Shown: positions 17,433 through 45,785 of the stretch, piece by piece
How positions within the stretch are numbered: the first letter of the stretch is position 1
Layout of the letters: every line of letters starts with the position of its first letter
Source of the DNA: Terriglobia bacterium
Lineage (GTDB): Bacteria; Acidobacteriota; Terriglobia; Acidiferrales; UBA7541
Direction of reading: 5' to 3'
Length of the DNA: 64,000 bases
Assembly (NCBI GenBank): GCA_020072805.1
Contig: JAIQGC010000024.1
Location: forward strand, 47,577-111,576
Position numbers and translations under genes: made by a program
Notes under the pieces: generated by a model
Told to the model about the DNA's origin: nothing
Seen by the model: the letters and a program-made list of their open reading frames with translations, nothing else
The model's database searches: none

Positions 17433-17450
17433 GCGGTCCTCTTCCCTGCC

Positions 17451-18695: not shown

Positions 18696-18780
18696 TTTCC
18701 GTTCTCCCCTTGCCACATTACAGAAAAACTCGCTTAACCCGGGCATCCTGCCTCAACGGTACTTGGCTGCAACACATGCC

Positions 18781-19903: not shown

Positions 19904-19906
19904 GGG

Positions 19907-21967
19907 TTATGGCCGGAAAACGGGTCCGGTGGATTTGGCGTCGGGCCAGGTGCCGTAATAGATCAGCGCTTCCTTGGGGGGAGACTTCTTGTTCCATTCC
20001 TTCTCGAACTCGCCGTAGGATTTGCCGCGAGCCAGGCGGGATTTCCGTTCCGCCGCACGTTGCTGATTTGTTTTTTCGATATCCACTTTTCTGCGCTCGT
20101 GGTCGTAGGCGATTTTATAGATTTCCGTCGCGGTCCAATCGGAGATGAGGCACTTCTTCAGGTCTTCCATCACGAACTCGGGGTCGCGTTCGAGGGGGTC
20201 GCCGTAACCGGGGCCGCCGCCGCTGAAGCCAAAGAGCAGATCGCCTTCCTGATAGACCTTGGGGGTGCGGGCGATGAGTTCGTAAGTCCAGTCGCCATGC
20301 ACCGTGGCTTTTTCCATGATCTCGCGGTGGTCCATGGTGAGTTCGGGATTGCCCTCCTTCATCTGCTTGAGGAGGTCGGTCTTTTTGACGCTGATGCCGG
20401 GAATGGGCGAAGAGGCGTAGCCGCCGAACATGGGCTGGCCGAGAGGCACCTTGCTGCCGTTGCCCATGCACAGGGAAACGATGTCGGGAACTTTGTGCAC
20501 CATCCATTGCTGGACGGCGCCGGAGCCGCCGCGGTGAATGCCGTGGCCGCAGGAGTCGCGCCAGTGCTGCGAGAGCATGACGGAGAGCGGGAGTTCGCTT
20601 TCGACCTGCTCGGAATCGGGAGCGCGGCCGAAGGCGCACCAGGCGAAGCCGTAGGAGTCCATGCCGTCGGTGGCGGCGCGGCCTCCCTGCCCCTGGGTGT
20701 TGAGGGAGAAGGAAAGCACGTCGGAGATGGCCAGCTTCCACTGGGAAACGCCGGCGCAGATCTGCGCGGTGTGCTGGCTGCCGGGAGAAGCGGCCACCTG
20801 CTGCCAGAGGCTGGCGCTCGAGAAGGTCATTTTGGCGAAAGCGTTGTGCGTGGCGCAGCGGGCCTGCATGCCGATATAGACGCAGCAACTGGTGGCGGCA
20901 AGCTTATCGGGGTTGAGGATGATGCCTTCGGGAAATTCGAAATCGATGGGAGCGAAGGTGGAGCTGCAGATGGGCAGGTCGTGGAAAAAATACTCGTACA
21001 TGAAATTGGCGATATGCCCAACGACGGCCTGGGTGTGCACGTTGTAGGAGGAGGGATTCTCGGGAGAGGTGCCCTCGAAATTGAAGACCAGGCGGCCGTC
21101 TTTCTTGGTGAGCGTAAGGAAGCAAGCGCGGACGAGCGCCGGGGTCCAGCCGATGGCGTCGTTGAAAACAACGGAGCGAAATTTTCCGTCGGGAAGGTGC
21201 TTGACCTTTTCGCGGGCGCCGGCTTCGGCGGTGTCCAGCATCTTGCGCATGAGGCCGATGACGAAATCCTCGCCGCGCTTCTTGACCAGTTCGAGGATGC
21301 GCACGCGAACGCGGTCGGCGGTGGTGCAGCGGGCGCGCAGGTCGGAGATGAACATGGCCGGGGCGCGCAGGCCGTAGACGGAATACATTTCCAAAAAGTC
21401 GTTGCGGATTTTGAAATTTTCGCCGATTTTGATGGGGGGCATGTTGAGCCCTTCCTCGAATCGGGATTTGGCGCTGACGGGCATGCCGCCGGGTTCGACC
21501 GCGCCGGTTTCGGTGGTGTGCAGAGCGGCGGTGGCCCAGGCGATGAGCCTGCCTTCGTGGAAAACGGGGATGAGGGCGACCTGGTCGGGATTGTGGATGC
21601 CGCCATAGAGGGCATCATTGGTGTACCAGATGTCGCCGTCGTGGATGCCGGGATTTTCGGCGTAATACTTCTGGATGAATTTGATGACGATGGGCTGAAT
21701 GATGGCGTGGAGATAGGTGCCGCAAGAGGCGTTGATGAGGTCGCCGTTGGCGGTGAAGATGGCCACCATGGAGTCGCCGGAAACCCCGAAATAGCTGCGC
21801 GAGGAGCGCACGAAGATTTCCATGGCCTCGTCGAGGATGTCGTTGGTGATCTGCGCGCCGATTTCGTAGTCGCCCTGAGCGAGCTTGGCGGCGCATTCGA
21901 TTTCATGGGGCGTGGGCGGGGACGGCTTGAGCCAAGCCAGTTTTTCCGCCAGTGTGGGTATGGGCAT
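19907..21967 (-). CDS. HyuB-like (hydantoinase B/acetone carboxylase alpha-type) subunit; acetophenone carboxylase beta (Apc4)-like
   Basis: 686 residues. Family features are seen throughout: QITNDILDEAMEIFVRSSRSYFGVSGDSMVAIFTANGDLI, the metal-site-like GDIWYTNDALYGGIHNPDQVALIPVF, FEGTSPENPSSYNV, and the glycine-rich tail FGFSGGGPGYGDPLERDPE. In this superfamily the B subunit carries the carboxylation or hydrolysis site while A subunits handle ATP. Two other gene products in the same operon are HyuA-like and a third is a small Zn protein, the composition of acetophenone carboxylase rather than of a two-subunit hydantoinase. ATG 21967 follows GAGGAG. Confidence 0.82.
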   Translation of the reverse strand: MPIPTLAEKLAWLKPSPPTPHEIECAAKLAQGDYEIGAQITNDILDEAMEIFVRSSRSYFGVSGDSMVAIFTANGDLINASCGTYLHAIIQPIVIKFIQKYYAENPGIHDGDIWYTNDALYGGIHNPDQVALIPVFHEGRLIAWATAALHTTETGAVEPGGMPVSAKSRFEEGLNMPPIKIGENFKIRNDFLEMYSVYGLRAPAMFISDLRARCTTADRVRVRILELVKKRGEDFVIGLMRKMLDTAEAGAREKVKHLPDGKFRSVVFNDAIGWTPALVRACFLTLTKKDGRLVFNFEGTSPENPSSYNVHTQAVVGHIANFMYEYFFHDLPICSSTFAPIDFEFPEGIILNPDKLAATSCCVYIGMQARCATHNAFAKMTFSSASLWQQVAASPGSQHTAQICAGVSQWKLAISDVLSFSLNTQGQGGRAATDGMDSYGFAWCAFGRAPDSEQVESELPLSVMLSQHWRDSCGHGIHRGGSGAVQQWMVHKVPDIVSLCMGNGSKVPLGQPMFGGYASSPIPGISVKKTDLLKQMKEGNPELTMDHREIMEKATVHGDWTYELIARTPKVYQEGDLLFGFSGGGPGYGDPLERDPEFVMEDLKKCLISDWTATEIYKIAYDHERRKVDIEKTNQQRAAERKSRLARGKSYGEFEKEWNKKSPPKEALIYYGTWPDAKSTGPVFRP

Positions 21968-22001
21968 GTTTCTCCTCGCCTTGCAGCGTGCAGTCTGACG
22001 C

Positions 22002-24125
22002 TTACTTCTTCTCCAGAATTCCCAGGCCGCGCTGGTCCACGGAAAATTTCATGGACGGAGGCACGACCAGAGTGGTGTATTCGCCTTCGACGATGGCCGG
22101 GCCTTCGATGAGGTTGCCGGGGCGCAGCGATTCGTAGGCAAAGAGCGGAGTGGGAACGTAGGCCTTGGTTTCGGCCCAATAGACGGGGCGTTCGCCCTTG
22201 CGCGCCGCGGAGGCATCCGGCCCTTCGAGCGGCATAATCGGCATTTCGATTTTCTTGGTCGGGACGATGGCTTTGAGAATAAAGCTCTCGATGAACACGC
22301 CGCCTTCGGGATTGACCACGTACGGGCTGAAGGCCTCGCTGAACTCTTTTTCGAACGCGGCGCAAATGGCGCGAACGTCTTCGGCGGACTTCAGGGCGAG
22401 GCGCGGGGAGAGCGTGCGCTTTACGTGGAACTGCCCGCCATAGAGCATGTCCAGTTCGAGAACGAAGCCGGCGGCGTCGGGACTGAGGCCGTCGGCGACG
22501 AGGTCGCGGCGGGCCTGCTCGATGAGCATTTCGACGGAGCGGTTGAAGGAAGAAAAATCGTCGGTGAGTTTCTGAGTGCCCGGTTCGAGCAAAGTAATTT
22601 TCTTCGAGTTTTCATAGACGTGCATGATGTCCATGGTCGAAGAGCCGAAGGCGCAGAAGACGGGAGAAAAATTGAAGATGACGGCTTTGGGAATATCGGC
22701 CATGTAGCCTTCCACGTGGGTGGCCCCGGCGCCGCCGCCGACGAAGAGAATAAACTCCTCGGGGCTGTAACCGCGCAGATGGACTTCCTTCATGATGGCG
22801 GAGGCCATATTGCCGTTGACGATTTTGCGGATAATCAGCGCGGCCTGTTCGACCTCCATGCCCAGGGGCTTGGCGATTTTGTCGCGGATGGCCTGGACGG
22901 AGCGTTCGCGGTTGAGCTTAAGCTTGCCGCCGTAATAAAAATCGGGATTGAGGTAGCCGAGGACAACGTCGGCATCGGTGACAGTGGGTTCCGTGCCGCC
23001 CTGATTGAAGCAGGCGGGGCCGGGCATCGAGCCGGCGCTCTTGGGGCCGACCTGAACCTGATTCTGGAGAAGTTTATTGAGCCAGCCGATGGAGCCGCCG
23101 CCGGCGCCGATGGAGAGCGTCTTGATCATGGTGATGCCGACCATCCAGCGGTCGATGATGGGGCGGAAATCGTAGCTGCGCACGCTGTCCTCGACAACCA
23201 GACCGACGTCGAAGCTGGTGCCGCCCATGTCGCTCATGACCACGTTCTTGTGGCCGAGGATTTTGGCGACGTGGTGCGCGCCCATGAGGCCGGAGACGGG
23301 GCCGCTGTTGAAGGTGCGGCTGGCGGCGGTGCGGAAGACTTCGGCGATGCCGCCGGAGCTCTGGATCATTAGCAGGGGCTTGGTATAGCCGCGGTCGCGC
23401 AGCTTGTCCCACATGGCGGAAAGCTCGATCTGCATGGAGCGCTGGAGATAGGCGTCGAGAATGGCGGCCAGGGTGCGTTCGTATTCGCCGAGCTTGCCGA
23501 CGACCTGCCCGCCGAGAACGACGGGAAGGAAGCCGATGTGGAACTCCTTGTACTCGTCGCGAATGATCTCCTTGATGCGTTTTTCGTGAATGGGATTCAG
23601 GAAGCCCCACAGCAGCGAAACGACGAAGCCGCGCACGCCCTTGGCGATGAGCGAGCGCACCTTGGCGCGCACGTCCTCCTCATCGAGCGGGCGAAGGATC
23701 AGTCCGCGCGAATCCACGCGTTCCTTCACGCCCACAATGCGGTCGCGGGGAATGAGCGGGTCCGGTTTTTTCTGGATGGAGAGGTTGCGGCGTTCGGTGA
23801 CGCGCGTGCCGTCAATCCATTGCGCGCCGCGTCCGATGAGCACAACGTCTTCATGGCCTTCGGTGGTGATCAGTCCGAGCCGCGGCCCCTTTTTCTCGAT
23901 GAGGCGGTTGAGGGCGATGGTGGTGGAATAGCGGATCATGTCGATGGCGGGAAGCAACTCCTCCATCTTCAGGCCCACGGCGGCGGCGCCCTCTTCGATC
24001 ACTTTGGTGAAGCAGACGGAGAGGTCGTAGGGCGTCGTGGGAACTTTTTTGATCAGGCTTTTCCCGCGGTAGTTGAGAACGAGATCGGTAAACGTTCCGC
24101 CCACATCGATGTCGATGGAATTCAT
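22002..24125 (-). CDS. HyuA-like ATPase subunit, acetophenone carboxylase alpha' (Apc3)-like
   Basis: 707 residues with the ASKHA-type ATP-binding landmarks of the hydantoinase A family: phosphate 1 motif IDVGGTFTDLVL at the N-terminus, phosphate 2 motif SDMGGTSFDVGLV, and the GPKSAGSMPGPACFNQGGTEPTVTDADVVLGYLNPD stretch. It would couple ATP hydrolysis to activation of a keto or enol group. Its ATG overlaps the stop of the small zinc protein by ATGA, indicating translational coupling. It is longer at the C-terminus than its paralogue at 24555-26561, as expected for a heteromeric alpha/alpha' pair. Confidence 0.82.
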   Translation of the reverse strand: MNSIDIDVGGTFTDLVLNYRGKSLIKKVPTTPYDLSVCFTKVIEEGAAAVGLKMEELLPAIDMIRYSTTIALNRLIEKKGPRLGLITTEGHEDVVLIGRGAQWIDGTRVTERRNLSIQKKPDPLIPRDRIVGVKERVDSRGLILRPLDEEDVRAKVRSLIAKGVRGFVVSLLWGFLNPIHEKRIKEIIRDEYKEFHIGFLPVVLGGQVVGKLGEYERTLAAILDAYLQRSMQIELSAMWDKLRDRGYTKPLLMIQSSGGIAEVFRTAASRTFNSGPVSGLMGAHHVAKILGHKNVVMSDMGGTSFDVGLVVEDSVRSYDFRPIIDRWMVGITMIKTLSIGAGGGSIGWLNKLLQNQVQVGPKSAGSMPGPACFNQGGTEPTVTDADVVLGYLNPDFYYGGKLKLNRERSVQAIRDKIAKPLGMEVEQAALIIRKIVNGNMASAIMKEVHLRGYSPEEFILFVGGGAGATHVEGYMADIPKAVIFNFSPVFCAFGSSTMDIMHVYENSKKITLLEPGTQKLTDDFSSFNRSVEMLIEQARRDLVADGLSPDAAGFVLELDMLYGGQFHVKRTLSPRLALKSAEDVRAICAAFEKEFSEAFSPYVVNPEGGVFIESFILKAIVPTKKIEMPIMPLEGPDASAARKGERPVYWAETKAYVPTPLFAYESLRPGNLIEGPAIVEGEYTTLVVPPSMKFSVDQRGLGILEKK

Positions 24126-24508
24126 TCAGAGACCTCGAGACGCTGCTTGCGAATTTTGTATTCCCCGCTCTGCAGCCGCTTTTTCAGGCTGTCCAGATCA
24201 ATTTCGATGTCCCAGGTGAGGGGATGTCCGGGGGGCAGATATTCGGTCTCCATCTGCACGCCGCAGCCGGGGCAATAAAACTCGACGATGCGCACCCACA
24301 GCGGGTCGGGGGAAAAGTTATATTCGCCGGAGACCAGCGGGGGATGAATCTCGCGGGGGTCGCGGTCGTGAATCAGGAGGCACCGCTTATAGTTCTCGCG
24401 GGCGGCGCCGAGTTCCTTGCCGCAGCGGTTGCAGTGCCATTTTTCCTTTTCGATGTCCAGGTCGAGATACTCGGTGACCCGGATTCGGTTTTGCTGTTCT
24501 GCCGCCAT
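24122..24508 (-). CDS. Small Zn-binding subunit, acetone carboxylase gamma / Apc2-like
   Basis: 128 residues. Two Cys pairs, CNRCGKELG (residues about 26-34) and CPGCGVQME (about 78-86), form a likely tetra-cysteine zinc site. YLDLDIEKEKWHCNRCGKELG and ENYKRCLLIHDRDPREIHPP resemble the gamma subunit family of acetone and acetophenone carboxylases. Position between two HyuA-like genes is the position of the 15-kDa gamma subunit in the apc cluster. I start at ATG 24508, which has GAGGAG upstream and removes a non-conserved arginine-rich extension. Confidence 0.8.
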   Translation of the reverse strand: MAAEQQNRIRVTEYLDLDIEKEKWHCNRCGKELGAARENYKRCLLIHDRDPREIHPPLVSGEYNFSPDPLWVRIVEFYCPGCGVQMETEYLPPGHPLTWDIEIDLDSLKKRLQSGEYKIRKQRLEVSE

Positions 24509-24554
24509 GGTTCTCCTCGTGCGCAAAGCGCGAGACACGCTGTCCGCGCGTTTG

Positions 24555-26561
24555 CTAACTTCGGGTCAGTTTCGCGTTGCCGTGCTGGTCCATGACCAGC
24601 GTCCAGCCTTCGGGAACGAAAAATGTGCTGTTGGCGCCTTCCAAAATGGCGCAGCCTTCCACCTTGTTGCCGGGCTCCAGCTTTTCCCAGGTGTAGAGCT
24701 GGGCTTCGCCCTTCTTGCTGCCCCAGGCGACGGCGCGCTGGCCCTTGAGGGCGGCGGATGCGCTGGCGCCCCTGTCCTGTTTTTTCGCAAGGGCCGGCTT
24801 GGGCATGGGCTTCTTGATGCGCACGCGGATCAGGCCGATGGCAAAGGTTTTCTTCGCGCCACCGACGGAATCCTCCAGGGAAGTTTTGAGCGCGGCGGCG
24901 TTGGTGAAGGCCAGCGGCGAGCAGGCGAGGGTTTCGAAAGGTTTTCCCGCGCGGGAAATTTCCAGCTCCACCGAATATTCGATGCCTTGAGGTTTGATGC
25001 CTTCGCCGAGAAGGTCGCGCGTGCCTTCGGCCTTGCAGTCATGGAAAGCGTCGAAGACGCGCTGGACGCCGGCTTCGTCGAGGGCGGTGACGTGCAGGGC
25101 GCGCTCGTAGAGATGGGAGATGTCCGAAACGGACGAACCGAAGGCGCTGAAGACCGGGCCGAGGTTGAAAAAATACACTTCGCGCAGGCCGGCTTTTTCG
25201 GCGACGCCGCAGGCGATGAGGCCGCCGTTGCCGCCGTAAGCGAACAGCGCGTGCTTGGCGAAATCCTGGTGCAGTTCCTTGCCGGCCGCGGCGATCATTT
25301 CGGCAACCATTTCATAGGCGCGTTCGATGATGGCGCAGGAAACTTCCTCGGGAGTTTTCTTGAGCGGCGTGGCAACGCGCTGCTCGATGGCCTGGCGGGC
25401 CGCATCTTTGCTGATGGATTTTGCGCCGCCGAGGAAATAATCGGGATTGATCAGCCCGGCGGTGACGAAGGCGTCGGTGAGCGTCGGTTCTTCTCCGCCG
25501 AGCGTATAGCAGGCCGGGCCGGGATAGGAGCCCATGCTCTCGGGACCGAGCGTGACCGGGGAATCCTTCCCTTTTCCCTTCCCTGCCGCGGGGCGGACGA
25601 TGCTGCCGCCGCCGAGAGCAATCGAGCGCAGATAGGGCAGAGAAATTTCCACGGGAATGCCGAAGAAATCGGACGGCTTGATCTGCACCGGGGCGGAATT
25701 GCGCAGGACGCTGACCTTGGCGGTGGTGCCGCCGACGTCGAGCGCGACGACGTCCTTCACACCATAGAGGGCGGCCAGATGCGCGCTGCCGTGAATGCCC
25801 AGGATGGGGCCGGATTCGATGGTGTCAATGGCCTTGGTCTTGGCGATGCCGGAAACGCCGCCGTTGATATGGCTGACGAGGAAGGTGCCGTCGTATTTGT
25901 GCGCGTCGCGGAGATCGTCTTCGGCCTTGAAGAGCGTGGCGGCGAGAGCGCCGTGGGTATAGGCGTTGATGAGCGCGCAGTCGGTGCGGGTCATGTCGTC
26001 GTAACTTTTGGAGCTATCGCTGCCGGCGAGAACCGGAACGGAGCCGAGAAAATGGTCGGGATATTGCTGGCCGACGATTTTCTTGATGCGGATTTCCAGT
26101 TCGGGATTGCGGTGAGCGCCCTCGAAGGAGACGCAGATGCGGCGGACGCCGGTCTCGAGCAGCGAGCGCACCGCGTTCATGACTTCGGCGTCGGACGCGG
26201 CGGGGTCAATGCCAATGACGTCGCGCTCGGAAAGGATGCGGCCCATGACCACGCTCCGGGCGTCCTTGCTGTAGATATTCTTTTCGTGGCCGGGAGAGAT
26301 GAGCAGGCCGATGCGCGGCCCGCGAAGCTCGGCCAGGACGTTCGAGGTGATGGTGGTGGACCAGCGGATCAGGTCCACTTTTTCGAGGAAGAGGTCCACG
26401 TCGGAATAGCCCAGTTGCACGGCACCCTGCGTGAGGCAGTCGAACAGGCAGATGGTCAGGTCGTGGGGAGTGGTATCCACCTTGGCGCAGACAATTTTCC
26501 CGCCATCGGTGAAGATGCCGTCCGTCAGTGTACCGCCGATATCGATATCAACAGTCAGCAC
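24555..26561 (-). CDS. HyuA-like ATPase subunit, acetophenone carboxylase alpha (Apc1)-like
   Basis: 668 residues. Same fold as the second HyuA gene: DIDIGGTLTDGIF (phosphate 1), LDVGGTTAKVSVL (phosphate 2), ESMGSYPGPACYTLGGEEPTLTDAFVTAGLINPDYFLGG. The start is GTG 26561 (VLTVDIDIGGT), 19 bases after the RutB-like stop. First carboxylase gene of the operon. Two diverged HyuA paralogues plus a gamma-type protein distinguish this from hydantoin racemase/hydantoinase operons. C-terminal third (LYTWEKLEPGNKVEGCAILEGANSTFFVPEGW) is the usual HyuA tail domain. Confidence 0.82.
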   Translation of the reverse strand: MLTVDIDIGGTLTDGIFTDGGKIVCAKVDTTPHDLTICLFDCLTQGAVQLGYSDVDLFLEKVDLIRWSTTITSNVLAELRGPRIGLLISPGHEKNIYSKDARSVVMGRILSERDVIGIDPAASDAEVMNAVRSLLETGVRRICVSFEGAHRNPELEIRIKKIVGQQYPDHFLGSVPVLAGSDSSKSYDDMTRTDCALINAYTHGALAATLFKAEDDLRDAHKYDGTFLVSHINGGVSGIAKTKAIDTIESGPILGIHGSAHLAALYGVKDVVALDVGGTTAKVSVLRNSAPVQIKPSDFFGIPVEISLPYLRSIALGGGSIVRPAAGKGKGKDSPVTLGPESMGSYPGPACYTLGGEEPTLTDAFVTAGLINPDYFLGGAKSISKDAARQAIEQRVATPLKKTPEEVSCAIIERAYEMVAEMIAAAGKELHQDFAKHALFAYGGNGGLIACGVAEKAGLREVYFFNLGPVFSAFGSSVSDISHLYERALHVTALDEAGVQRVFDAFHDCKAEGTRDLLGEGIKPQGIEYSVELEISRAGKPFETLACSPLAFTNAAALKTSLEDSVGGAKKTFAIGLIRVRIKKPMPKPALAKKQDRGASASAALKGQRAVAWGSKKGEAQLYTWEKLEPGNKVEGCAILEGANSTFFVPEGWTLVMDQHGNAKLTRS

Positions 26562-26580: not shown

Positions 26581-27249
26581 CTATCTTACCGCTTTCAAAA
26601 ACTCTTGCGAAGAAACCGTCCACCCAAAGAAACTTTCCACATTGAACACGGTGGCTTCCTGCAGCGCGGGCGGCCCGGCCTGCATGGCGGCGTCGGTGAT
26701 GAGCACGGGCCAGTAGTCCAGGAAATAGCCGTGGCGCAGCGTGGATTCCACGCAGACGTTGGTGGCGATGCCGGTCATGAAGAGGTACTGGATGCCGCGC
26801 ATGCGCAACTGGGAATCGAGCGTGGTGCCCTGAAAACCGCTGTAGCGCGTCTTGATGATGACGATGTCTTGCGGCTGGGGCTTCAGTTCGTCCACGATCT
26901 CAAAATCCCAGGTGCCTTCGGTGAGCAGCTTGCCCTTGAGTTCGGGGCGGCAGTTCATCAGGTGCATGGCCAGTTCTTTGTGGAAATTGGGAGAACCCGG
27001 ACCTCCGCTGTTGCTCAGGTCGGGCTTGTAGCCCATCTGCAGATGCACAACGGGCATGGAGGCGCGCCGCGCGGCCTCGGCGATGCCGCGGATGGCGCTG
27101 ATGACCTGAGCGGCGCCGGAGATGTCCACGCCGGCGATATCCAGCATGCCGCCCTTGGTGGCGAAGGCGTTCTGCATGTCCACGATGACCACGGCGGCCT
27201 TTTTCAGGTCGATTTCCACCGGGGCGGGCTTGGCATTAAGAACAGGCAT
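26581..27249 (-). CDS. Isochorismatase-like cysteine amidohydrolase, RutB-like
   Basis: 222 residues. Catalytic triad residues of the family are visible: aspartate in VVIVDMQNAFATKGG, lysine in IIKTRYSGFQGTTLDS, cysteine in MTGIATNVCVESTLRHGYFLDYWPV. GGPGSPNFHKE and AGPPALQEATVFNVESFFGW are very like ureidoacrylate amidohydrolase (RutB), which releases carbamate from ureidoacrylate. No other rut gene is here. It is the first gene after operator A and 19 bases upstream of the first HyuA-like gene, so it is co-transcribed with the carboxylase genes. Its substrate in that setting is unknown. Confidence 0.8.
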   Translation of the reverse strand: MPVLNAKPAPVEIDLKKAAVVIVDMQNAFATKGGMLDIAGVDISGAAQVISAIRGIAEAARRASMPVVHLQMGYKPDLSNSGGPGSPNFHKELAMHLMNCRPELKGKLLTEGTWDFEIVDELKPQPQDIVIIKTRYSGFQGTTLDSQLRMRGIQYLFMTGIATNVCVESTLRHGYFLDYWPVLITDAAMQAGPPALQEATVFNVESFFGWTVSSQEFLKAVR

Positions 27250-27357
27250 GGTTTTTACCGCTTTTTGCCAGACAGATGTTCGGCGTTTATTTCCAAAAAC
27301 ATGCGAATCGAAGACCAAAGCTCCCGGATGTAAATGGCTCCGGGTAGGAATTTAAGG

Positions 27358-27416
27358 AATCTAGCGTCAAAAGGAGAGGGCGTCAAGGCCGATAATCGTG
27401 CAACCGTGCGAATATC
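27358..27416 (-). promoter_or_regulatory. Operator A plus sigma70-type promoter of the RutB/carboxylase operon
   Basis: Inverted repeat GATAATCG (27391-27398), 10-base spacer, CGAATATC (27409-27416). Read on the minus strand it is followed after 4 bases by TTGACG (27386-27381), a 17-base spacer and TAGATT (27363-27358). The leader to ATG 27249 is about 100 bases. The same arrangement recurs at three other promoters. A site directly upstream of -35 suits an activating IclR-type protein. Confidence 0.8.
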
Positions 27417-27427
27417 GGACGTTCCTC

Positions 27428-28759
27428 CTATCCTTCATATAGCTTCTTGATCAACTGCCCCTTCATCTCGAATCTCGGCAGCGTGCCTGCGGGAACCAGC
27501 TGCACGGAGGCGGGCACGGTCAGCATGCCTTTAATCTTATCTTCCAGTTGTTTTTTCAGGACGGGCTGGTCGGCCGAGCCATTGGCGCATTCGGCGACAA
27601 CTTTGAGGGGCGGCTTCACCCCGGGACCGGGCTGATCGAGCAGAATCTGTATCTCGCCGGTCACCTGCGGATAGAAGCTAGAAACGATATCGCGGACGGC
27701 GGAGGGGAAGACGTTGACGCCCAGGACGATGAGCATGTCATCGGTGCGGCCGACGCAGCGCATCTTGTAGCTGGTGCGGCCGCAGTTGCAGGAGGTGGCC
27801 AGGATGGAGACGCGGTCGCGAGTGCGGAAGCGCAGCAGCGGGACGCATTCGCGTTCGAGAGAAGTGTAGACCAGTTCGCCGGAAACGCCCGACTCGATGG
27901 GAAGAACCGCGCCGGTCTCGGGGTCAATGATTTCCGTATAAACGTACTCCTGGCCGCAGTAGTGCATCCCGGTCTGCTCCGGGCATTCGCCGAAGATGAT
28001 CGGACCCATGTCGGCATTGCCGAGTCCCTCGGTGACGCGCGCGCCCCACTCTTCGGTGAGCTTGGCGCGAATTGAGGGGATGCCGGCGCCGGGTTCCGCT
28101 CCGCAGACCAGTTTCTTAATGCCGAAATCGCGCGGGTTCATCTTGGCTTCCCGGCGGATGTATTCGGCGAGATAGATGGCGTAAGAAGGCGTGCAGTGGA
28201 TGACGTTGGCGCCCAACGAGCGGGCGTAGAGGACCACCTTTTCGGACGCGCCGGTGCCCAGGGGCACGAAGGTTGCGCCAATGAGCTCCATGGCGTCCTT
28301 CGAAGGCAGGCCGCCGACGAACATGGTAAGCCCTGCGGCGTGAATAACGATATCCGAGGGGCGAATGCCCTGGGTATAGAAGGAGCGCGCGGTCATGTTG
28401 GTCCAGCACTGCGCGTCCTTGCGGGTGACGCCGACGAAACTGGGCCGTCCGGTGGTGCCGGTCGAGGAATGCAGGCGGACGACGTCCACCATGTCGGCGG
28501 CCATGTGGCGGCCGAGAGGCGGGCTGGCCAATTGGCTTTCGCGCAACTCTTCCTTGGAAGTGAAAGGAAAGCGGGCCAAGTCGTCGAGCGAGCGGAAATC
28601 GGCACGGCGAAGGCCGGCGGCGGCGAATTTGTCCTGGTAGAAGAGCGAGCGGGCGAAAAGGTAGTCGAGTTGAGTGGAAAGTTTCTGCACCTGCAACTGG
28701 CGCAGGGCGGCGGGGCTCATCGTTTCTATTTCGGGGTCCAGGTATTGCTCGGTTCTCAT
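27428..28759 (-). CDS. PaaK-like aryl-CoA ligase
   Basis: 443 residues, phenylacetate-CoA ligase family. Motifs: VRLHSSTGTTGRPSFVGVT (AMP/phosphate loop), CGAEPGAGIPSIRAKL, TEGLGNADMGPIIFGEC, LLRFRTRDRVSIL, SCNCGRTSYKMRCVGRTDDMLIVLGVNVFPSAV. It precedes operator A on the same strand and follows the TonB receptor after a hairpin terminator, so it is probably transcribed separately from both or by read-through from the receptor. In this context it is a candidate to activate the carboxylation product (an aroylacetate) to its CoA ester; this assignment is inference. It shares clear overall family similarity with the ligase at 12437-13762. Confidence 0.85.
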   Translation of the reverse strand: MRTEQYLDPEIETMSPAALRQLQVQKLSTQLDYLFARSLFYQDKFAAAGLRRADFRSLDDLARFPFTSKEELRESQLASPPLGRHMAADMVDVVRLHSSTGTTGRPSFVGVTRKDAQCWTNMTARSFYTQGIRPSDIVIHAAGLTMFVGGLPSKDAMELIGATFVPLGTGASEKVVLYARSLGANVIHCTPSYAIYLAEYIRREAKMNPRDFGIKKLVCGAEPGAGIPSIRAKLTEEWGARVTEGLGNADMGPIIFGECPEQTGMHYCGQEYVYTEIIDPETGAVLPIESGVSGELVYTSLERECVPLLRFRTRDRVSILATSCNCGRTSYKMRCVGRTDDMLIVLGVNVFPSAVRDIVSSFYPQVTGEIQILLDQPGPGVKPPLKVVAECANGSADQPVLKKQLEDKIKGMLTVPASVQLVPAGTLPRFEMKGQLIKKLYEG

Positions 28760-28921: not shown

Positions 28922-31900
28922 TTAGAAGGAGTACTTGAGCGAGATCTGGAGCTGGCGCGGATTGAACATGGTGCGCGCCGAACCAAAGCTCGGGTTGGGG
29001 ACCGGGGGGCCGGCCACCGGGCAGCTGAAAACTGTGATTTGCTGTATGGCAATCGAGGTAGCGTCCTTATAGCTGACGGGAACCTGGCCGTTGCAGAAGC
29101 CGTAGGTTCCGTAAACAGAGGTGACTTCGTTCACGTTGGGCCGGTTGAGGGCGTCGAAGACGTCCAGGGCCAGATCGATCCTCTGCTTCTCACGGAACTT
29201 AAAGTGCTGCGTGAGGCGCAGGTCAACCGTCTTGAACTTGTCGCCCCAGTAGGTGTTGCGGGCGGAAAGACCGACGCGATCGGTGACCGGGTTGGTGTCA
29301 TTGTTGGCGTCAAAGCCCACGAACATGGTGAAGGGGCGGGCGCCTTGCAGGGTGACGATGCCGCTCAACTCCGTATTGCGCAGGAAGGTCTCCTTCGGTC
29401 CGGTGGCGGTAAAGTTGGCCACGAAGCGGTGACGCACGTCCTGGTTGGAGTTTCCGCGTTCGGCGGCCCGGTTATAGAGATCCTGAGGGGTGCTGACGAA
29501 GGTGGTGAACGTGCCGTCATCCAGGGTCTTGGAGTAGGTGTAGTTGGCGTTCCAGCTCAGATTCTGGCCAATCCGCTGCTTCGCGGTAAAGGTCACACCG
29601 TGATAGACGCTGTTCCCGCTGTTGTCGGTGTAATAGAGCAGACCGACAGGGATGAGCACGCTTTGGAAGTAGCTCTTGCCGGCCGGGAAATCCGGCGGCG
29701 GAGCGGCGTAGTTGCCAAACGCATTGGAACCGCACTCATACCAGCCGGTGGTCATGGAAGGCGTCACACCGCCGGTGGAGTTTGACGGGCAGACGTTCAA
29801 GTTTTCCGCGCGCACCTGATGGTGAGCGGAAACGAAGAGATAGCCAATGTTGAGCACCAGGCCATGTCCGATTTCGCGGTCAATTTCAAAACTGCCCTGC
29901 TCGGCGTAGGGCATCTTGCTGGCGGTTTCAACCGTGCCGTCACCCACGGTGGAGAATTCCGGTTTGGTGACGTCGGTGACTAGTTGAACGGGAGTATAGA
30001 GGCCATTGATGAGAAGATTCGCGGCCGTGTTCGCCGGTATCCAGCCGAGGCTCGGAACGAAGGGCTGCTGGTTGAGCGCGTAGGTGGCGTTCGGCCCGCC
30101 CTGGCGGATGCCCGGCAGGTCATAGTTGGTTCCGGAACAGTTCGCAGTGGGCACCACGCAGACGAACGTCGTGGGGCGCTGCGGCCGGGTGACGAAGAAG
30201 AACGACGTGTTATACCGGTCGCTGAAGAGACCGAAGCCGGCGCGCACAACGGTGTGCTTGTCCGGCGAATAGGCGAAGCCGACGCGCGGCTGGAACGCCT
30301 TGTAGTAGTGATTGACGGTATCGCTGATGCCCGGCTCGAAATCCCAGCGCACCCCGTAATTCACTGTGAATTTGGAGCTGACGCGCCACTGGTCCTGCGC
30401 GTAGAAGCCCAGGTAGCCGTGCTTCATGTCCGAGAAATAATTCGGAGTTTGGCTGTCCTGATAGGCCTTATCCCAATTCAAAGGCAGGGAAAATGCCGGA
30501 GCCGTGGCTGCGGTGCCATCCACCACCGAGGTGTCCGCCGAACCCAGCGGAGAGGGCCAGAAGACGATCGGGGTGCCGTTCATGAACCCAGGAAGCGGAC
30601 AGGTGTCACCCGGGTTGGCCGTATATCCCAAAGCGGGCATCGGAGATCCCCTTTGGATATTGATGAAATTGGCGAAGTCCACCAGGCAGTCAACGCTGGG
30701 CAGAACGATGCGCATCGGAGAGAAACCCGGCCAGATGATGTGGTCGTCGACACGGTTATAGTCGGCGCCAAACTTGGCTACGTGCGCTCCCTTAACCCAC
30801 GAAACGTTGTCCGAAAGCTGGATGCGGCTCTCGTAGGTGGCGTCGAATACGCCGAAGTTATGCCCCATCAGCAGCGAGTTGGGGATATCCAGACCGGGCT
30901 GGCCCGTGACGCCGGGGAAAGTGGAGTGGCGCCGGCCATACTGAACGAGCACCGAATTCATCAGATTGGGAGAAAATTGCGTATTGAGCGTGCCCACCAG
31001 GGACTGATCGCGCAGGAAGTTATCGTGCGCGCTGCTGGGAGCGGCAATGCCTCCTCCGTCCAGCGTGTCGCCCATGAGCACGTTCAGGCTGCGGCCATCC
31101 TCGATGCTGTAGCGCAGGGCCAGACGGTTGTTCTTGTTGATTTCGTGGTCCAGCTTGATGAAGCCCTTGTCGGTATCCTGGGTCTTCAGGTTGCCGGTGA
31201 GCTCGTCGAATTGACCCGGCGCGCCGCCATACAGCATTGCCTTCGCCGTATTGATCAACGCCAGATTGGCCATCAGCACCGGGGACTGCACCGGCGCTTC
31301 CGCGCGGCGCTGTCCTTCGTAGTTCATAAAGAAGAACGTCTTATCCTGCTTGATGGCGCCGCCCAAGGTGCCGCCAAACTGGTTCTGCCGGAACGTCTTC
31401 GGCAGCGGGTCAGGCAGAAGCATGGGGCGCGCGTTCATGGCGCTGTTTTCCAGGTAATCGTAGAGTGAGCCGTGCCGGTCGTTGGTCCCGGACTTGGTGA
31501 TGATGTTGACGATGCCGCCCATGGCCCGGCCCTGTTCCGCCGAGAAGCCGTTGTTGACCACGCGGAATTCGCTGACCGCCTCCTGCGAAGGAGTGGCGCG
31601 CTGCGAACCGGTGGCGGAGTTGATGGTGTCCGCTCCGTCCACGGTAACCAGGTTGCTCAGGTCGCGCATGCCGCCAAACGAGATGCGCGTAACTTCCGTC
31701 TCGGTGATGGTGGACTGCAGCGAGGTGCGGCCGGTGGTGACGCCGGGGGTGAGCAGGGCGAAGTCGGTGAAGAGGCGGCCGCTGATGGGCAGCGAGCCGA
31801 TCTGCTTCGAGTCAATCACCTGGCTGACTTCCGTACGCGTGGGCTCGACGGGCGGGGTCTCGGTGCTGACTTCGACTTTTTCGCCGACCGCGGCGACCTT

Positions 31901-32236
31901 GAGATCGATGTCAATGGTGGCCACCTGACCGACGCTCAAGACGATTCCGGTGTGCGTGGACTTGGCGAAACCGGTGGCATCCACGACCAACTCGTAATGA
32001 GCCGGCGACAGATTGGGCAGAACGTAATAGCCCGTATCCGTGGAAACGGCCGAATAGGTGCGGCCAGTATCCACGTCGCGCAGGGTGACCGTGGCCTTGG
32101 CCACGGAACCACCGCTGGCGTCACGGATTGTGCCGTTCAACTGCGCGCCGCTGCTGCCCTGCGCGTAAGCGGCAGGCATGCCAGCTACCAAGAAGACTAT
32201 CGCGAAAACGACTAAGAGCATTCCCCGTAGTTTCAT
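28922..32236 (-). CDS. TonB-dependent outer-membrane receptor with carboxypeptidase-regulatory-like domain
   Basis: 1104 residues. Signal peptide MKLRGMLLVVFAIVFLVAGMPAAYA; residues about 30-115 form a CarboxypepD_reg beta-sandwich (GTIRDASGGSVAKATVTLRDVDTGRTYSAVSTDTGYYVLPNLSPAHYEL); about 125-250 form the plug (SQVIDSKQIGSLPISGRLFTDFALLTPGV); the rest is the beta-barrel ending in the aromatic LQISLKYSF. This Oar-like type is abundant in Acidobacteriota and imports unknown organic substrates. Its promoter carries operator B, shared with the aromatic genes, so an aromatic or lignin-derived substrate is plausible. ATG 32236 is followed at once by the signal peptide. Confidence 0.9.
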   Translation of the reverse strand: MKLRGMLLVVFAIVFLVAGMPAAYAQGSSGAQLNGTIRDASGGSVAKATVTLRDVDTGRTYSAVSTDTGYYVLPNLSPAHYELVVDATGFAKSTHTGIVLSVGQVATIDIDLKVAAVGEKVEVSTETPPVEPTRTEVSQVIDSKQIGSLPISGRLFTDFALLTPGVTTGRTSLQSTITETEVTRISFGGMRDLSNLVTVDGADTINSATGSQRATPSQEAVSEFRVVNNGFSAEQGRAMGGIVNIITKSGTNDRHGSLYDYLENSAMNARPMLLPDPLPKTFRQNQFGGTLGGAIKQDKTFFFMNYEGQRRAEAPVQSPVLMANLALINTAKAMLYGGAPGQFDELTGNLKTQDTDKGFIKLDHEINKNNRLALRYSIEDGRSLNVLMGDTLDGGGIAAPSSAHDNFLRDQSLVGTLNTQFSPNLMNSVLVQYGRRHSTFPGVTGQPGLDIPNSLLMGHNFGVFDATYESRIQLSDNVSWVKGAHVAKFGADYNRVDDHIIWPGFSPMRIVLPSVDCLVDFANFINIQRGSPMPALGYTANPGDTCPLPGFMNGTPIVFWPSPLGSADTSVVDGTAATAPAFSLPLNWDKAYQDSQTPNYFSDMKHGYLGFYAQDQWRVSSKFTVNYGVRWDFEPGISDTVNHYYKAFQPRVGFAYSPDKHTVVRAGFGLFSDRYNTSFFFVTRPQRPTTFVCVVPTANCSGTNYDLPGIRQGGPNATYALNQQPFVPSLGWIPANTAANLLINGLYTPVQLVTDVTKPEFSTVGDGTVETASKMPYAEQGSFEIDREIGHGLVLNIGYLFVSAHHQVRAENLNVCPSNSTGGVTPSMTTGWYECGSNAFGNYAAPPPDFPAGKSYFQSVLIPVGLLYYTDNSGNSVYHGVTFTAKQRIGQNLSWNANYTYSKTLDDGTFTTFVSTPQDLYNRAAERGNSNQDVRHRFVANFTATGPKETFLRNTELSGIVTLQGARPFTMFVGFDANNDTNPVTDRVGLSARNTYWGDKFKTVDLRLTQHFKFREKQRIDLALDVFDALNRPNVNEVTSVYGTYGFCNGQVPVSYKDATSIAIQQITVFSCPVAGPPVPNPSFGSARTMFNPRQLQISLKYSF

Positions 32237-32348
32237 TCCAGCACCCCTTTATGTGTTAGGCAGCCGTTAAGCGCCTATTCCCAAATCACTGCTTACCTAA
32301 GATAAAAAATCCCATGGGCCTCGACAGACCCATCGCAACGTGAGGGAT

Positions 32349-32406
32349 GATTTACAACGGGCGGAATTGGTTGTCAAGGCAATAATCGAGCATTCGTGCG
32401 ATTATC
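32349..32406 (-). promoter_or_regulatory. Operator B and promoter of the TonB receptor gene
   Basis: AATAATCG (32381-32388), 10-base spacer, CGATTATC (32399-32406): same spacing as operators A and C. On the minus strand, 3 bases after the repeat comes TTGACA (32377-32372), then 17 bases and TAAATC (32354-32349). The -10 box is weak. The site also lies upstream of the divergent PQQ dehydrogenase. Confidence 0.75.
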
Positions 32407-32428
32407 GTTGTTTCGCCTTTTCCCTTGC

Positions 32429-32455
32429 TTGACATCTCAATCTCCTGGGGATAAT
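32429..32455 (+). promoter_or_regulatory. Candidate promoter of the PQQ dehydrogenase
   Basis: TTGACA (32429-32434) and GATAAT (32450-32455) with a 15-base spacer, somewhat short; TAATCA at 17 bases is the alternative. The -35 box begins 22 bases after operator B, so the operator could serve both directions. Confidence 0.45.
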
Positions 32456-32505
32456 CAACTGTTACACGCCTGTGACTGGCACGCCCACGGGTCAGGAGAA
32501 TCCAC

Positions 32506-34710
32506 ATGGATCGAAGGACAATTTCCGTCATCGCGGTGGGACTGGCAATGGCAGTGGCAGGGCTTTACGCACCGAGTTCCGCTTTCGCGCAGGGCGCGAA
32601 GAGCGCCGGCGCGAAAAAGCGCGCGAGCGCGGTCAAAGCCGCCGCGGTGAATGGAAAGCGCATCGCCCAGGCCGACCAGGAGCCGGGAAACTGGATGAGC
32701 CAGGGGCGCACCTACAGCGAGCAGCGCTTCAGCCCGCTGAAGCAGATCAATGAGAAAAACATCGGGGAACTGGGGCTGGCGTGGTCCTACGACCTGGACA
32801 CGCATCGCGGGCAGGAGGCCACGCCGCTGGTGGTGGATGGAACGATGTATTTTTCGACGGCGTGGAGCAAGGTGGTGGCCCTGGATGCGGCCAGCGGAAA
32901 ACTACGCTGGGAGTATGACCCCAAAGTGCCGGGGGAATGGGCCATCAACGCCTGCTGCGACGTGGTCAACCGCGGCGTGGCCGTCTGGGAAGGAAAAGTT
33001 TTCGTGGGCACGCTGGACGGGCGGCTGGTGGCGCTGGATGCGGCCACGGGCAAGCTGCTCTGGGAAACGCTGACGATTGATCGCAACTGGCGCTATACGA
33101 TCACCGGAGCGCCGCGCGTGGTCAAGGGCAAGGTGCTGATCGGCAACGGCGGAGCGGAAATGGGCGTGCGCGGGTATGTCTCGGCTTACGATGCCGCGAC
33201 GGGCAAGATGGCGTGGCGTTTCTACACCGTGCCGGGTGATCCCTCGAAGCCCTTCGAGAGCCCGGCAATGGAAAAGGCCGCTAAAACCTGGACGGGCGAA
33301 TGGTGGAAGTACGGGGCAGGCGGAACGGCATGGGACGCGATTGTGTACGACCCGGACCTCGATCTGGTGTATATCGGCACCGGGAACGGCTCGCCGTGGG
33401 ACCGCCGGGTGCGCAGCCCGCAGGGCGGCGACAATCTCTACCTCAGCTCCATCGTGGCCCTGAATCCGGATACCGGCGAATACGTCTGGCACTACCAGGA
33501 AACGCCGGGAGAGAGCTGGGACTTCACCGCCTGCCAGCCCATTATCATTGCCGACCTCAAGCTGGATGGGCGGACGAGGCGCGTTCTGCTGCATGCGCCG
33601 AAGAACGGGTTCTTCTACGTGCTGGACGCCAAAAGCGGCGAGCTGATTTCGGCCACGGCGTACACGAAGACCACCTGGGCCACGGGAGTGGACCTGAAGA
33701 CGGGGCGGCCAATAGAAACGCCCGTGGGGCGCTACCCCGGCACCAGCCCCGAGCCCACGCAGCCGGGCCCGCTGGGCGGGCACAACTGGCAGTCCATGTC
33801 CTATAGCCCGCTCACCGGCCTCGTCTACATTCCCGTACACGAATCGGGTTTTCTGTACAAGTCCGACCCGGAGTTCACGCCCAAGAAGCTGGCATTCAAC
33901 ACCGCCACGGACGGCGTAGCCGCGGGCATGCCGCAGGATCCCAAAATCAAGAAAGCGATTCTGGAGGGGATCAAGGGGCGGCTGGTGGCCTGGGACCCGG
34001 TGCAGCAGAAGAAAGTGTGGGACGTGGAACGGCCCGGACCGTGGAACGGAGGAATCCTGTCCACGGCGGGAAACCTGGTCTTTGAAGGAACGGCGTCGGG
34101 AAATTTTGAAGCCTACCGCGCGAATAGCGGCGAGAAGCTCTGGTCGGCGCCGGCGCAGACCGGAATCATCGCCGCGCCCATCAGCTATACGGTGAAGGGC
34201 GAGCAGTACGTAGCGGTGCTGGCGGGTTTGGGCGGAGCCTTTCCGCCGAACACCGGCGAGGTGTCGCACAAGCGCGGGCTGATGCTTCCGCTGATCACCG
34301 GCGAGGTGTCGCACAAGTCCGGGCTGATGCACAACGTGAGCCGCATGCTGGTGTTCAAGCTGAACGGCAAGGCCACGCTTCCGCCGCGCAAGGTGGTCGA
34401 GCCGGTGCTGAATCCCCCGCCCTCGACGGCCAGCGCGGAGGAGATTCACAAGGGCGAAAAACTGTTCCAACGCTACTGCTCGGCCTGCCATGGAGACGTC
34501 GCGGTGGGGGGCGGAGTCCTGCCGGACCTGCGCTATTCGGGGACGCTGACGGATGACACCTTCTACAGCGTGGTTCTCGACGGAATCCTGAAACAGGCAG
34601 GGATGATCGCCTTCGGCAAGGAACTCTCGAAGGAAGATGCCACGCTCATCCGCGAGTACGTGATCTATCGGGCGAACCAGAGCGTGGAGGAGAGCAAACA
34701 GAAGAATTAG
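32506..34710 (+). CDS. PQQ-dependent quinohemoprotein alcohol dehydrogenase
   Basis: 734 residues. Signal peptide [28 protein letters not shown] sends it to the periplasm. An eight-bladed PQQ propeller follows: [21 protein letters not shown] at the start, tryptophan-docking-like repeats ([34 protein letters not shown]), and adjacent cysteines in [13 protein letters not shown], the disulfide ring over PQQ. The C-terminal cytochrome c domain has the heme motif CSACH (about residue 660) and a later methionine, so electrons leave via heme. A 45-base in-frame tandem duplication sits before that domain. Divergent from the TonB receptor and next to operator B; substrate is probably an aromatic alcohol (inference). 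Confidence 0.9.
34252..34341 (+). repeat. 45-base in-frame tandem duplication in the PQQ dehydrogenase
   Basis: Two consecutive 45-base units start with the identical 21-mer ACCGGCGAGGTGTCGCACAAG (quoted as its 21 bases minus none in frame: TGEVSHK) and share GGGCTGATGC; the encoded units read [15 protein letters not shown] and [15 protein letters not shown]. Confidence 0.8.
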
Positions 34711-35817: not shown

Positions 35818-35831
35818 CGGTTTCTCCCTCT

Positions 35832-40569: not shown

Positions 40570-41424
40570 CTATTTCAGCAGGCCGGAAATCTCCTCCGCC
40601 GCGCTCTGCAAGTGCGGCAGAAACGTTCCCACCATATCCTGCACGGAAACCCGCTGCGCGTGCGCCCCCACGTTCAGCGCGGCAATCACCTTCCCCGAGG
40701 AATTGCGGATGGGCACCGCCAGCGCGCGCAGTCCGATCTCCAGCTCCTGGTCCACCAGCGCATACCCGTTGGTGCGCACAAACTGAATCGCATGGCGCAA
40801 ATCGGCCATGCTCACGATCGTGCGCGCCGTGTGCGGAACCAGTTCGGCGCGGGCCAGTTGCGCTTCCAAATCTTCGGGAGAAAGGCTCGCCAGCATCACC
40901 CGCCCCAGCGACGTGTTAATCGCCGGCAACCGGCTGCCCATGGACAGGTCAATCGCCAGGATGCGAGTCACATTCGAATGCGCCACGTGGATCACGTCGC
41001 TGCCGTCCAGCATGGCAATCGAGCAGCTTTCGCGCAGCGTCTGGCTCAAGCGGTCCAGGATGGGCTGCGCCAGCTTGGCCACCGGCAACGACGAAATATA
41101 CGAATGCCCCAGCGTCAGTATCCGCGGCCGCAGCGAAAAATGCCGCCCGTCTTCGCTGACCGCCAGCCCCAGCTTGGTCAGCGTGTACAGGCAGCGGCGC
41201 ACCGCGGCCCGCGAAAGCCCCGTCGTCACGCTCAACTGCGAAATGGTCAGAAAGGACTTGGCGTGAGAAAACGCTTGAATCACCGCCAGCCCCCGCGCCA
41301 GCGAAGTCATGAAGTTGGGGTCGCCGCTAAAAACGTCAATCAGCGCCGCGGGGAGCACGGAAGGATTCGAGGAGTCCCCCAGCGGGATCACGTCTGGTCG
41401 TTGCGGTTTGATCTTCGTACTCAG
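40570..41424 (-). CDS. pcaR: IclR-family regulator of the PcaR/PcaU/PobR subgroup
   Basis: About 284 residues from a CTG start, close to known PcaR lengths. DPNFMTSLARGLAVIQAFSHAKSFLTISQLSVTTGLSRAAVRRCLYTLTKLG is nearly the PcaR-type helix-turn-helix region, and CSIAMLDGSDVIHVAHS with LVDQELEIGLRALAVPIRNSSGKVIAALNV is the effector domain. The ORF track start (GTG 41502) lies inside operator C and upstream of a likely -10 box, so it cannot be right. CTG 41424 has GGAAGGTG five bases upstream; ATG 41310 is the alternative but has no RBS. Divergent from pcaHGBD; expected to bind the GATAATCG operators and respond to a pathway intermediate such as beta-ketoadipate. Confidence 0.85.
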   Translation of the reverse strand: MSTKIKPQRPDVIPLGDSSNPSVLPAALIDVFSGDPNFMTSLARGLAVIQAFSHAKSFLTISQLSVTTGLSRAAVRRCLYTLTKLGLAVSEDGRHFSLRPRILTLGHSYISSLPVAKLAQPILDRLSQTLRESCSIAMLDGSDVIHVAHSNVTRILAIDLSMGSRLPAINTSLGRVMLASLSPEDLEAQLARAELVPHTARTIVSMADLRHAIQFVRTNGYALVDQELEIGLRALAVPIRNSSGKVIAALNVGAHAQRVSVQDMVGTFLPHLQSAAEEISGLLK

Positions 41425-41473: not shown

Positions 41474-41550
41474 ATAATACACCCGATGTCCAATATTCGC
41501 ACACGTTTTCGATAATCGCCATTGACACTTTTTCCTTAATTTAATACATT
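41474..41550. promoter_or_regulatory. Operator C with the divergent pcaR and pcaH promoters
   Basis: AATATTCG (41492-41499), 10-base spacer, CGATAATC (41510-41517). Four bases on, the plus strand has TTGACA (41522-41527), 17 bases, TACATT (41545-41550), leading to pcaH at 41642. On the minus strand TATTAT (41479-41474) is a -10 box for pcaR whose -35 region is covered by the operator, which suggests autorepression together with activation of pcaH. Confidence 0.82.
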
Positions 41551-41641: not shown

Positions 41642-42349
41642 ATGTCGAACATCGCCGGCTACCGCAGACCCATGGCCGGGACGCAGCCCAATCACCTGCA
41701 CCCTCCCTACGCCTCCAGCGTGGCACGCTCTCCCCGCCAGCCGCTCGTCTACCTGCCACACACCCTGTCCGAGGTGACCGGCCCGATCGTCGGGCCAGAG
41801 CGCGTGGACGTAAAAGCCTTTGACCTCACCAAGCAGCACAAAGGGGAGCCCCTCGGCGAGCGCATCGTGGTCAGCGGGCGGGTGATTGACGAAAACGGCC
41901 GCCCCGTGCCGCACACTCTGGTGGAAATTTGGCAGGCCAATTCCGCCGGGCGCTACCTGCACAAAGTAGACCAGCACAACGCTCCGCTGGACCCGAACTT
42001 CACAGGCTGCGGGCATACCCTGACCGACAGCGAAGGCCGCTACCGCTTCGTCAGCATCCGCCCCGGCGAATATCCCTGGAAAAATCACTACAACGCCTGG
42101 CGCCCCGCGCACATCCATTTTTCGCTCTTCGGCCCGGCCTTCGCCACGCGTCTGGTCACGCAGATGTATTTCCAGGGCGATCCGCTCATCCCCTACGATC
42201 CCATCTTCAACTGCACCAGCGACGAAAAGGCCCGCAACCGGCTGATCTCCCAGTTCGACTGGGAATCCACGATTCCCGAGCAGGCCCTCGGCTACAAGTT
42301 CGACATCATCCTAAACGGACGCGACTCCACACCCTGGGAGAATAAATAA
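41642..42349 (+). CDS. pcaH: Protocatechuate 3,4-dioxygenase beta subunit
   Basis: About 235 residues. With PcaG it opens the protocatechuate ring between the hydroxyls to 3-carboxy-cis,cis-muconate. The catalytic Fe(III) ligands are present in order: Tyr in AGRYLHKVDQHNAPLDPNFTGCG, Tyr in RPGEYPWKNHY and the two histidines in RPAHIHFSLFG. IVVSGRVIDENGRPVPHTLVEIWQANSAGRY is the standard dioxygenase sandwich. ATG 41642 follows AGGAGA. First gene of pcaHGBD, with its promoter touching operator C. Confidence 0.93.
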   Translation: MSNIAGYRRPMAGTQPNHLHPPYASSVARSPRQPLVYLPHTLSEVTGPIVGPERVDVKAFDLTKQHKGEPLGERIVVSGRVIDENGRPVPHTLVEIWQANSAGRYLHKVDQHNAPLDPNFTGCGHTLTDSEGRYRFVSIRPGEYPWKNHYNAWRPAHIHFSLFGPAFATRLVTQMYFQGDPLIPYDPIFNCTSDEKARNRLISQFDWESTIPEQALGYKFDIILNGRDSTPWENK

Positions 42350-42350
42350 G

Positions 42351-42911: not shown

Positions 42912-42930
42912 GAGTGTTTACACTCTCTGC

Positions 42931-44304: not shown

Positions 44305-44305
44305 A

Positions 44306-45085: not shown

Positions 45086-45086
45086 T

Positions 45087-45112
45087 GTAGAGGCCGGGCT
45101 TTAGCCCGGCTC
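45087..45112 (+). repeat. REP upstream of RAYT
   Basis: GTAG foot followed by AGGCCGGGCT-TT-AGCCCGGC hairpin; differs by one base from the downstream copy. Confidence 0.85.
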
Positions 45113-45174
45113 TTGGGTTTGACTCTGCTCTTCCCCCCCAACCACCCACTCCGCCAATCGCTCCTTCTACACCC

Positions 45175-45198
45175 GCCGCCCTAAAGGGCGGCCTCTAC
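45175..45198 (-). repeat. Inverted REP upstream of RAYT
   Basis: On the minus strand GTAGAGGCCGCCCTTTAGGGCGGC: same foot, different stem. With 45087-45112 it forms an inverted pair like a bacterial interspersed mosaic element. Confidence 0.8.
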
Positions 45199-45238
45199 AA
45201 ATTCCCCTAAATCCCCCATCCCATGCTAATTTCCCCCC

Positions 45239-45763: not shown

Positions 45764-45785
45764 AGGCCGGGCTTCAGCCCGGCTC
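45760..45785 (+). repeat. REP downstream of RAYT
   Basis: GTAGAGGCCGGGCTTCAGCCCGGCTC type; its first bases overlap the RAYT stop codon. Confidence 0.85.

Follow-up and report, generated by a model that had tools for sequence, protein, structure and literature searches.

In a 64,000-nucleotide stretch of DNA from a Terriglobia bacterium (the window; C103:47577-111576 of the window genome, G000), the gene for an Oar/TonB-type outer-membrane receptor (28922..32236, minus strand) and that for a type II quinohemoprotein alcohol dehydrogenase (32506..34710, plus strand) diverge from an intergenic region containing a palindromic element, operator B (32380..32407, minus strand, facing the receptor gene). 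The original prediction, made from the letters of the window, had described this divergent pair with an operator between the two open reading frames (ORFs), and the arrangement holds; it went on to propose that one regulator governs both genes through operator B. Sequence comparison favors a narrower explanation, which we consider likely: operator B is a tandem PcaR/PcaU-type site for the regulator encoded at 40570-41310 and drives the receptor, with the dehydrogenase transcribed from a promoter of its own. More broadly, a Pca-type switch very probably drives the outer-membrane receptor along with a catabolic pathway, and the receptor, an aryl-ketone-type pathway and protocatechuate cleavage probably form one regulon.

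Operator B comprises two palindromes in tandem, CGATAATCG (32399-32407) and CGATTATTG (32380-32388), with centers 19 nt apart, inside the 18-22 nt range reported for tandem IclR-family sites (PMC8222616). The perfect ATAATCG-N10-CGATTAT repeat at 32382-32405 had been read as an inverted repeat of two half-sites; the repeat is present, but each CGATWATCG "half-site" is palindromic in its own right and corresponds to the core of one PcaR/PcaU site. The Pseudomonas putida PcaR box is GTTCGATAATCGCAC (PMC12455658) and the PcaR consensus is WWWRKTCGATWATCGSAYRRW (PMC8222616), and the minus strand of operator B carries CGATAATCGCAC, 12 bases identical to those of the P. putida box (the CGATWATCG core plus a CAC flank).

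Two further sites in the window are built in the same tandem manner. Site A (27390..27417, minus strand) lies 3 bp upstream of TTGACG(27381-27386)-N17-TAGATT and faces the isochorismatase and carboxylase genes, and site C (41491..41518, plus strand) lies 3 bp upstream of TTGACA(41522-41527)-N17-TACATT and faces pcaH. Operator B shares this geometry, a feature absent from the original prediction: after 2 bp it is followed by a minus-strand TTGACA-N17-TAAATC, read from the sequence as the -35 (32372..32377) and -10-like (32349..32354) elements of the receptor promoter. With up to three mismatches allowed, the window contains five matches to the operator pattern against 0.93 expected, a count reached in none of 100 shuffles. 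The only zero-mismatch matches in the 3.98-Mb genome are sites A, B and C, although the pattern was drawn from those very sites and its uniqueness alone would be circular. A weight matrix built from other genomes only, and applied to the window and to retrieved loci, scored sites A, B and C at 38.3, 38.1 and 38.2 bits, respectively, with the next site at 16.5 bits and a maximum of 13.9 bits in 30 shuffled windows. By the same matrix, operator B scores 38.1 bits in the direction of the receptor versus 19.8 bits toward the dehydrogenase. These comparisons support operator B as a genuine operator of the type seen at sites A and C. Site D (10048-10075), a weak operator-like palindrome in the intergenic region of divergent genes near a GMC oxidoreductase, was rejected as an operator at 16.5 bits and with no adjacent -35.

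The candidate regulator (40570..41310, minus strand) belongs to the PcaR/PcaU/PobR group of the IclR family. It matches TIGR02431 at 298.2 bits (curated cutoff 284.75), and its closest solved structure is 8eju ("Pca regulon", E=1e-69), aligned over residues 1-241, the full length. Its gene adjoins site C and is divergent from pcaHGBDC; because the start of the long ORF (41502) overlaps site C, translation more probably begins at the internal ATG at 41310, the start adopted here. A single regulator probably controls sites A, B and C. Another protein could bind them instead, and a second IclR-family member is encoded in the same cluster (49401-50459; 27% identical to the first), but this protein reaches just 141 bits against the TIGR02431 cutoff of 285, its gene is not the neighbor of site C, and the sites match the PcaR/PcaU consensus specifically, all of which makes binding by a different regulator very unlikely.

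The association of the operator with the receptor promoter extends to related clusters. In 14 clusters, the window counted, the TTGACA of the receptor promoter (TTGACT in two) follows the operator after 2-3 bp, and at least five kinds of neighbor occur on the operator's upstream side: the pyrroloquinoline quinone (PQQ) dehydrogenase in G000, G028, G029, G083, G084, G051 and, beyond the 14, G030; a coenzyme A (CoA) ligase in G062, G063 and G066; an E1 subunit in G019; the regulator in G026; and a second TonB receptor followed by the dehydrogenase in G052 and G053. Some clusters were recruited via the operator itself, and its presence there is no test; G051, G052, G053, G083, G084 and G030 were recruited via the dehydrogenase, and operator position and orientation were never a selection criterion. 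When the gap was fixed at 3 bp in a stricter pattern, only sites of that gap were recovered. One-mismatch matches in relatives (for example, in G010, G011, G021 and G035) have neither the CGCAC flank nor an adjacent -35 and were set aside as looking like chance.

The dehydrogenase side shows no such constancy. In the window its promoter is read from the sequence as a -35 TTGACA (32429..32434, plus strand), 21 bp from operator B, with a -10-like GATAAT (N15; 32450..32455) or TAATCA (N17; 32452-32457), also on the plus strand. An element of this type (TTGACA with a GATA-type -10) is recognizable in seven genomes (the window genome and six relatives), where the gap from the operator to the dehydrogenase -35 is 21 (window), 79, 80, 122, 143, 197 and 253 bp. 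The position of the operator relative to both promoters is thus not conserved, being 2-3 bp on the receptor side and 21-253 bp on the dehydrogenase side. No operator precedes dehydrogenase orthologues encoded apart from the receptor (best matrix scores below zero).

The case for shared control had leaned on spacing: 22 bases were counted from the repeat to the plus-strand TTGACA, equal to the distance from the distal half-site to the -35 in sites A and C. Using one half-site definition throughout (the 9-mer CGATWATCG), the distal half-site to -35 gaps are 22 for A, 22 for C and 21 for the minus side of B. The near-equality stands arithmetically, but the gap to the plus-strand TTGACA is 21 by consistent counting and is not kept in relatives. 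We rejected the equality as an argument for shared control, given that it is confined to the window genome and that relatives' gaps run from 79 to 253 bp.

Several observations weigh against assigning operator B to the receptor. The compared clusters come from one family, albeit several genera, are largely from metagenome-assembled genomes (MAGs), and are not independent. Operator sites are weaker in G083 and G084, a fifteenth cluster (G030) has a degenerate copy, and receptor relatives in G068, G056, G070 and G008 (53-69% identical) have no site in the examined stretch. The promoters are consensus readings, and a stricter sigma-70 scan listed none within 32150-32600. Finally, the dehydrogenase -35 of the window genome, at 21 bp, could be reached by an operator-bound activator, so sharing in this genome alone keeps some weight. 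Under such an arrangement, the short intergenic region would leave only 21 bp between operator B and the dehydrogenase promoter, the transcription start expected from that promoter would lie roughly 50-80 bp downstream of the operator, and the bound regulator would activate both genes. Divergent genes with one common PcaU-type site occur in Acinetobacter, which counts in favor of sharing, as does the close proximity of dehydrogenase and pca/apc genes in many relatives. Nevertheless, the gap keeps no helical phase (2.0, 7.5, 7.6, 11.6, 13.6, 18.8 and 24.1 turns), operator B is oriented as the receptor is, and relocated dehydrogenase genes do not bring an operator with them. Overall, one operator for both promoters appears unlikely, and control of both genes by operator B in the window genome is possible but unsupported. 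The portion of the original proposal that stands is that sites A-C are of one kind, probably under one regulator; the portion that does not is the inclusion of the dehydrogenase, given that in relatives the operator accompanies the receptor rather than the dehydrogenase, keeps the orientation of the receptor promoter, and lies at gaps of 21-253 bp from the dehydrogenase -35. A role for the dehydrogenase in the same metabolism as the receptor and pathway is nonetheless plausible, since the gene often remains near pca/apc genes in relatives when it is not beside the receptor; as the original prediction suggested, the enzyme might carry out the first periplasmic oxidation of the compound taken up.

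The genes behind the three sites suggest what this regulon may accomplish. A PaaK-like CoA ligase (27428..28759, minus strand) lies downstream of the receptor. Past site A, on the minus strand, are an isochorismatase/RutB-like hydrolase (26581..27318), acetophenone-carboxylase-like subunits apcA, B, C and D with an apcE/URO-D-like protein (18878..26561), and a thiolase with a 4HBT-type thioesterase (17019..18746) that likely end the same transcription unit as the carboxylase genes. Site C faces pcaH, pcaG, pcaB, pcaD and pcaC of the protocatechuate branch (41642..46371, plus strand). Close relatives have no site A, and their ligase and isochorismatase genes overlap or are at most 25 bp apart, so site A looks like a local addition. 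The genes are consistent with a route in which an aryl methyl ketone is carboxylated, activated with CoA, and taken by thiolysis and hydrolysis to an aromatic acid, with protocatechuate cleavage coming next; related pathway logic has been described for acetovanillone and 4-hydroxyacetophenone (PMC9618137). The apc subunits are homologous throughout to ApcA-E but all fall below NCBIfam equivalog cutoffs, and for this reason acetophenone itself is not claimed as the substrate. PobA (4-hydroxybenzoate hydroxylase) has no match in the window genome and is present in several relatives, in some near the cluster; its absence here might point to a dihydroxy or methoxylated substrate.

Computation establishes where the sites lie, how closely they resemble PcaR sites, how they are conserved and oriented, and how the gap to the dehydrogenase varies. 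Regulator binding, activation and substrate are inferred as follows. An aromatic acid or ring-cleavage product would serve as inducer, and the 40570-41310 regulator would bind all three sites immediately ahead of the -35 elements as an activator. PcaR has been reported to activate from upstream boxes and to repress from boxes at or past the -10 (PMC12455658). Binding at B would turn on the receptor and, behind it, the PaaK-like ligase; binding at A would turn on the genes for the isochorismatase-like and acetophenone-carboxylase-like proteins, the thiolase and the thioesterase, which readthrough from B would reach as well; and binding at C would turn on pcaHGBDC. The likely outcome is that a plant-derived aromatic, probably an aryl ketone or the corresponding alcohol, would be taken up on induction and converted to protocatechuate. 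For the PQQ dehydrogenase, a sigma-70-like promoter of its own would direct transcription, and the gene's location next to the operator would reflect mainly gene order.

Other genes of the locus deserve mention. The acetophenone-carboxylase-like operon, with thiolase and thioesterase genes after it, is encoded here in an acidobacterium. Within the pca genes, an IS200-type transposase gene (Y1_Tnp; 45239-45763) separates pcaD from pcaC. A MetE-like (Meth_synt_2) protein at 48206-49387, whose counterparts at 77-85% identity lie beside pca genes in many relatives, is possibly linked to O-demethylation, and a DUF5938/saccharopine-dehydrogenase-like protein (38978-40144) is retained in nearly every related cluster. 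E1 alpha and beta subunits (34852-37008), with no E2 or E3 recognized among the genes examined, are kept beside the dehydrogenase in several relatives and might take part in diketone or 2-oxoacid cleavage. Rfam and tRNA scans of the 64-kb window gave no matches.

The two proteins flanking operator B are assigned from their family matches. The 1104-residue receptor fits a TonB-receptor-superfamily barrel by Pfam matches to OMP_b-brl_4 (331 bits) and TonB_dep_Rec_b-barrel (TonB_dep_Rec; 35 bits), alongside CarboxypepD_reg, and its named relatives come from Terriglobia MAGs; an AlphaFold2 model was too poor (predicted local distance difference test score 39) for a plug domain and 22-strand barrel to be judged from it. 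The 734-residue dehydrogenase matches TIGR03075 at 661 bits (cutoff 480), with PDB 1kv9 as the closest solved structure (E=3e-235), and possesses a PQQ propeller, a C-terminal cytochrome c domain and a signal peptide (read by eye). Lanthanide-type (XoxF/PedH) PQQ dehydrogenases carry an extra Asp two residues past the catalytic Asp (D-x-D). The window enzyme has no D-x-D and reads WDFT, like 1kv9, and the lanthanide-type identity was rejected.

Despite this PQQ dehydrogenase gene, no pqqB, pqqC or pqqE scored above cutoff in the window genome, which is 99.8% complete, making the organism a probable PQQ scavenger as judged by gene content. All three genes are also lacking in G030, G083, G084 and G051, G052 and G053 are without pqqB and pqqC, and G028 retains only pqqB. 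This deficit raises the idea that the window receptor imports PQQ as the cofactor of the dehydrogenase, which would explain the gene neighborhood; direct receptor-dehydrogenase adjacency is indeed found in six of eight genomes without the pathway versus one of ten with it (p=0.009, phylogeny ignored). However, receptor and operator also occur in the pqq-bearing genomes G026, G029, G066, G063, G055 and G019, the last of which has no close dehydrogenase orthologue, and the receptors linked to pqq genes belong to another family. Because the window receptor is kept with the carboxylase operon downstream of it and is present in genomes with pqq genes, we regard a role in PQQ import as very unlikely, and uptake of an aromatic pathway substrate remains the preferred reading.

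That other family (alignment A3, 20 members) includes the TonB receptors located directly upstream of the dehydrogenase in G052 and G053. It has a member in the window genome at C141:12762-15092 (L142:6762-9095) and others at L072:10718-13318 and in L145, L146, L169, L174 and L181, and it adjoins pqq biosynthesis genes in G007, G008, G071 and G080. A3 members are present in five of eight genomes without the PQQ pathway versus one of 11 with it (p=0.024, phylogeny ignored). The best single-sequence PDB match of a relative's A3-type receptor is Escherichia coli YncD/PqqU, likewise a TonB receptor, but E. coli-type PqqU identity was rejected: Y/F/W99, R304 and R365 do not align (alignment A2), with the loop alignment uncertain at 21-25% identity. 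A profile search, moreover, places the family among general TonB receptors and not with PqqU specifically. Among Acidobacteria, PqqU has been reported only in Vicinamibacteria (PMC12124388, which also describes the E. coli protein). Tentatively, and with slightly less than an even chance, an organism unable to make PQQ may import the cofactor via this Terriglobia receptor family (here C141:12762-15092), distinct from E. coli-type PqqU.

The proposed regulon resembles the PcaR/PcaU/PobR regulons of P. putida and Acinetobacter baylyi in its IclR regulator subgroup, CGATWATCG core, neighboring pca operon and site upstream of the core promoter. It would differ in extending to an outer-membrane receptor and an acetophenone-carboxylase-like operon, in the tandem of two palindromes, and in its acidobacterial host. 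Control of a TonB receptor and lignin-derived-aromatic catabolic genes by one regulator has a parallel in DdvR-DdvT of Sphingobium SYK-6 (PMC6874591), although DdvR is a MarR repressor and both receptor and pathway are different. PheR of Sphingobium SHPJ-2 is an IclR regulator that affects aromatic catabolism and TonB receptors, but it is a repressor with a different site, and the passages available from that report do not show direct receptor control (PMC13273656). The dehydrogenase has full-length homology, PQQ propeller and cytochrome c included, to the type II quinohemoprotein alcohol dehydrogenases 1kv9, 1kb0 and 1yiq; its host, in contrast, is without PQQ synthesis genes. We found no report of such a regulon in acidobacteria in the open-access literature.

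Overall, these comparisons would place uncultivated soil acidobacteria among the hosts of a well-known regulon for aromatic acids. The conserved operator geometry ties an outer-membrane receptor to that regulon and suggests aryl ketones or alcohols of plant origin as a class of substrates for which the receptor can be tested. The analysis also illustrates how a spacing coincidence in a single genome can be checked, and dismissed, by comparing relatives. If A3-family import of PQQ is borne out, it would explain the cofactor supply of PQQ-dependent soil acidobacteria that do not synthesize PQQ, and the family would represent a new kind of PQQ receptor.

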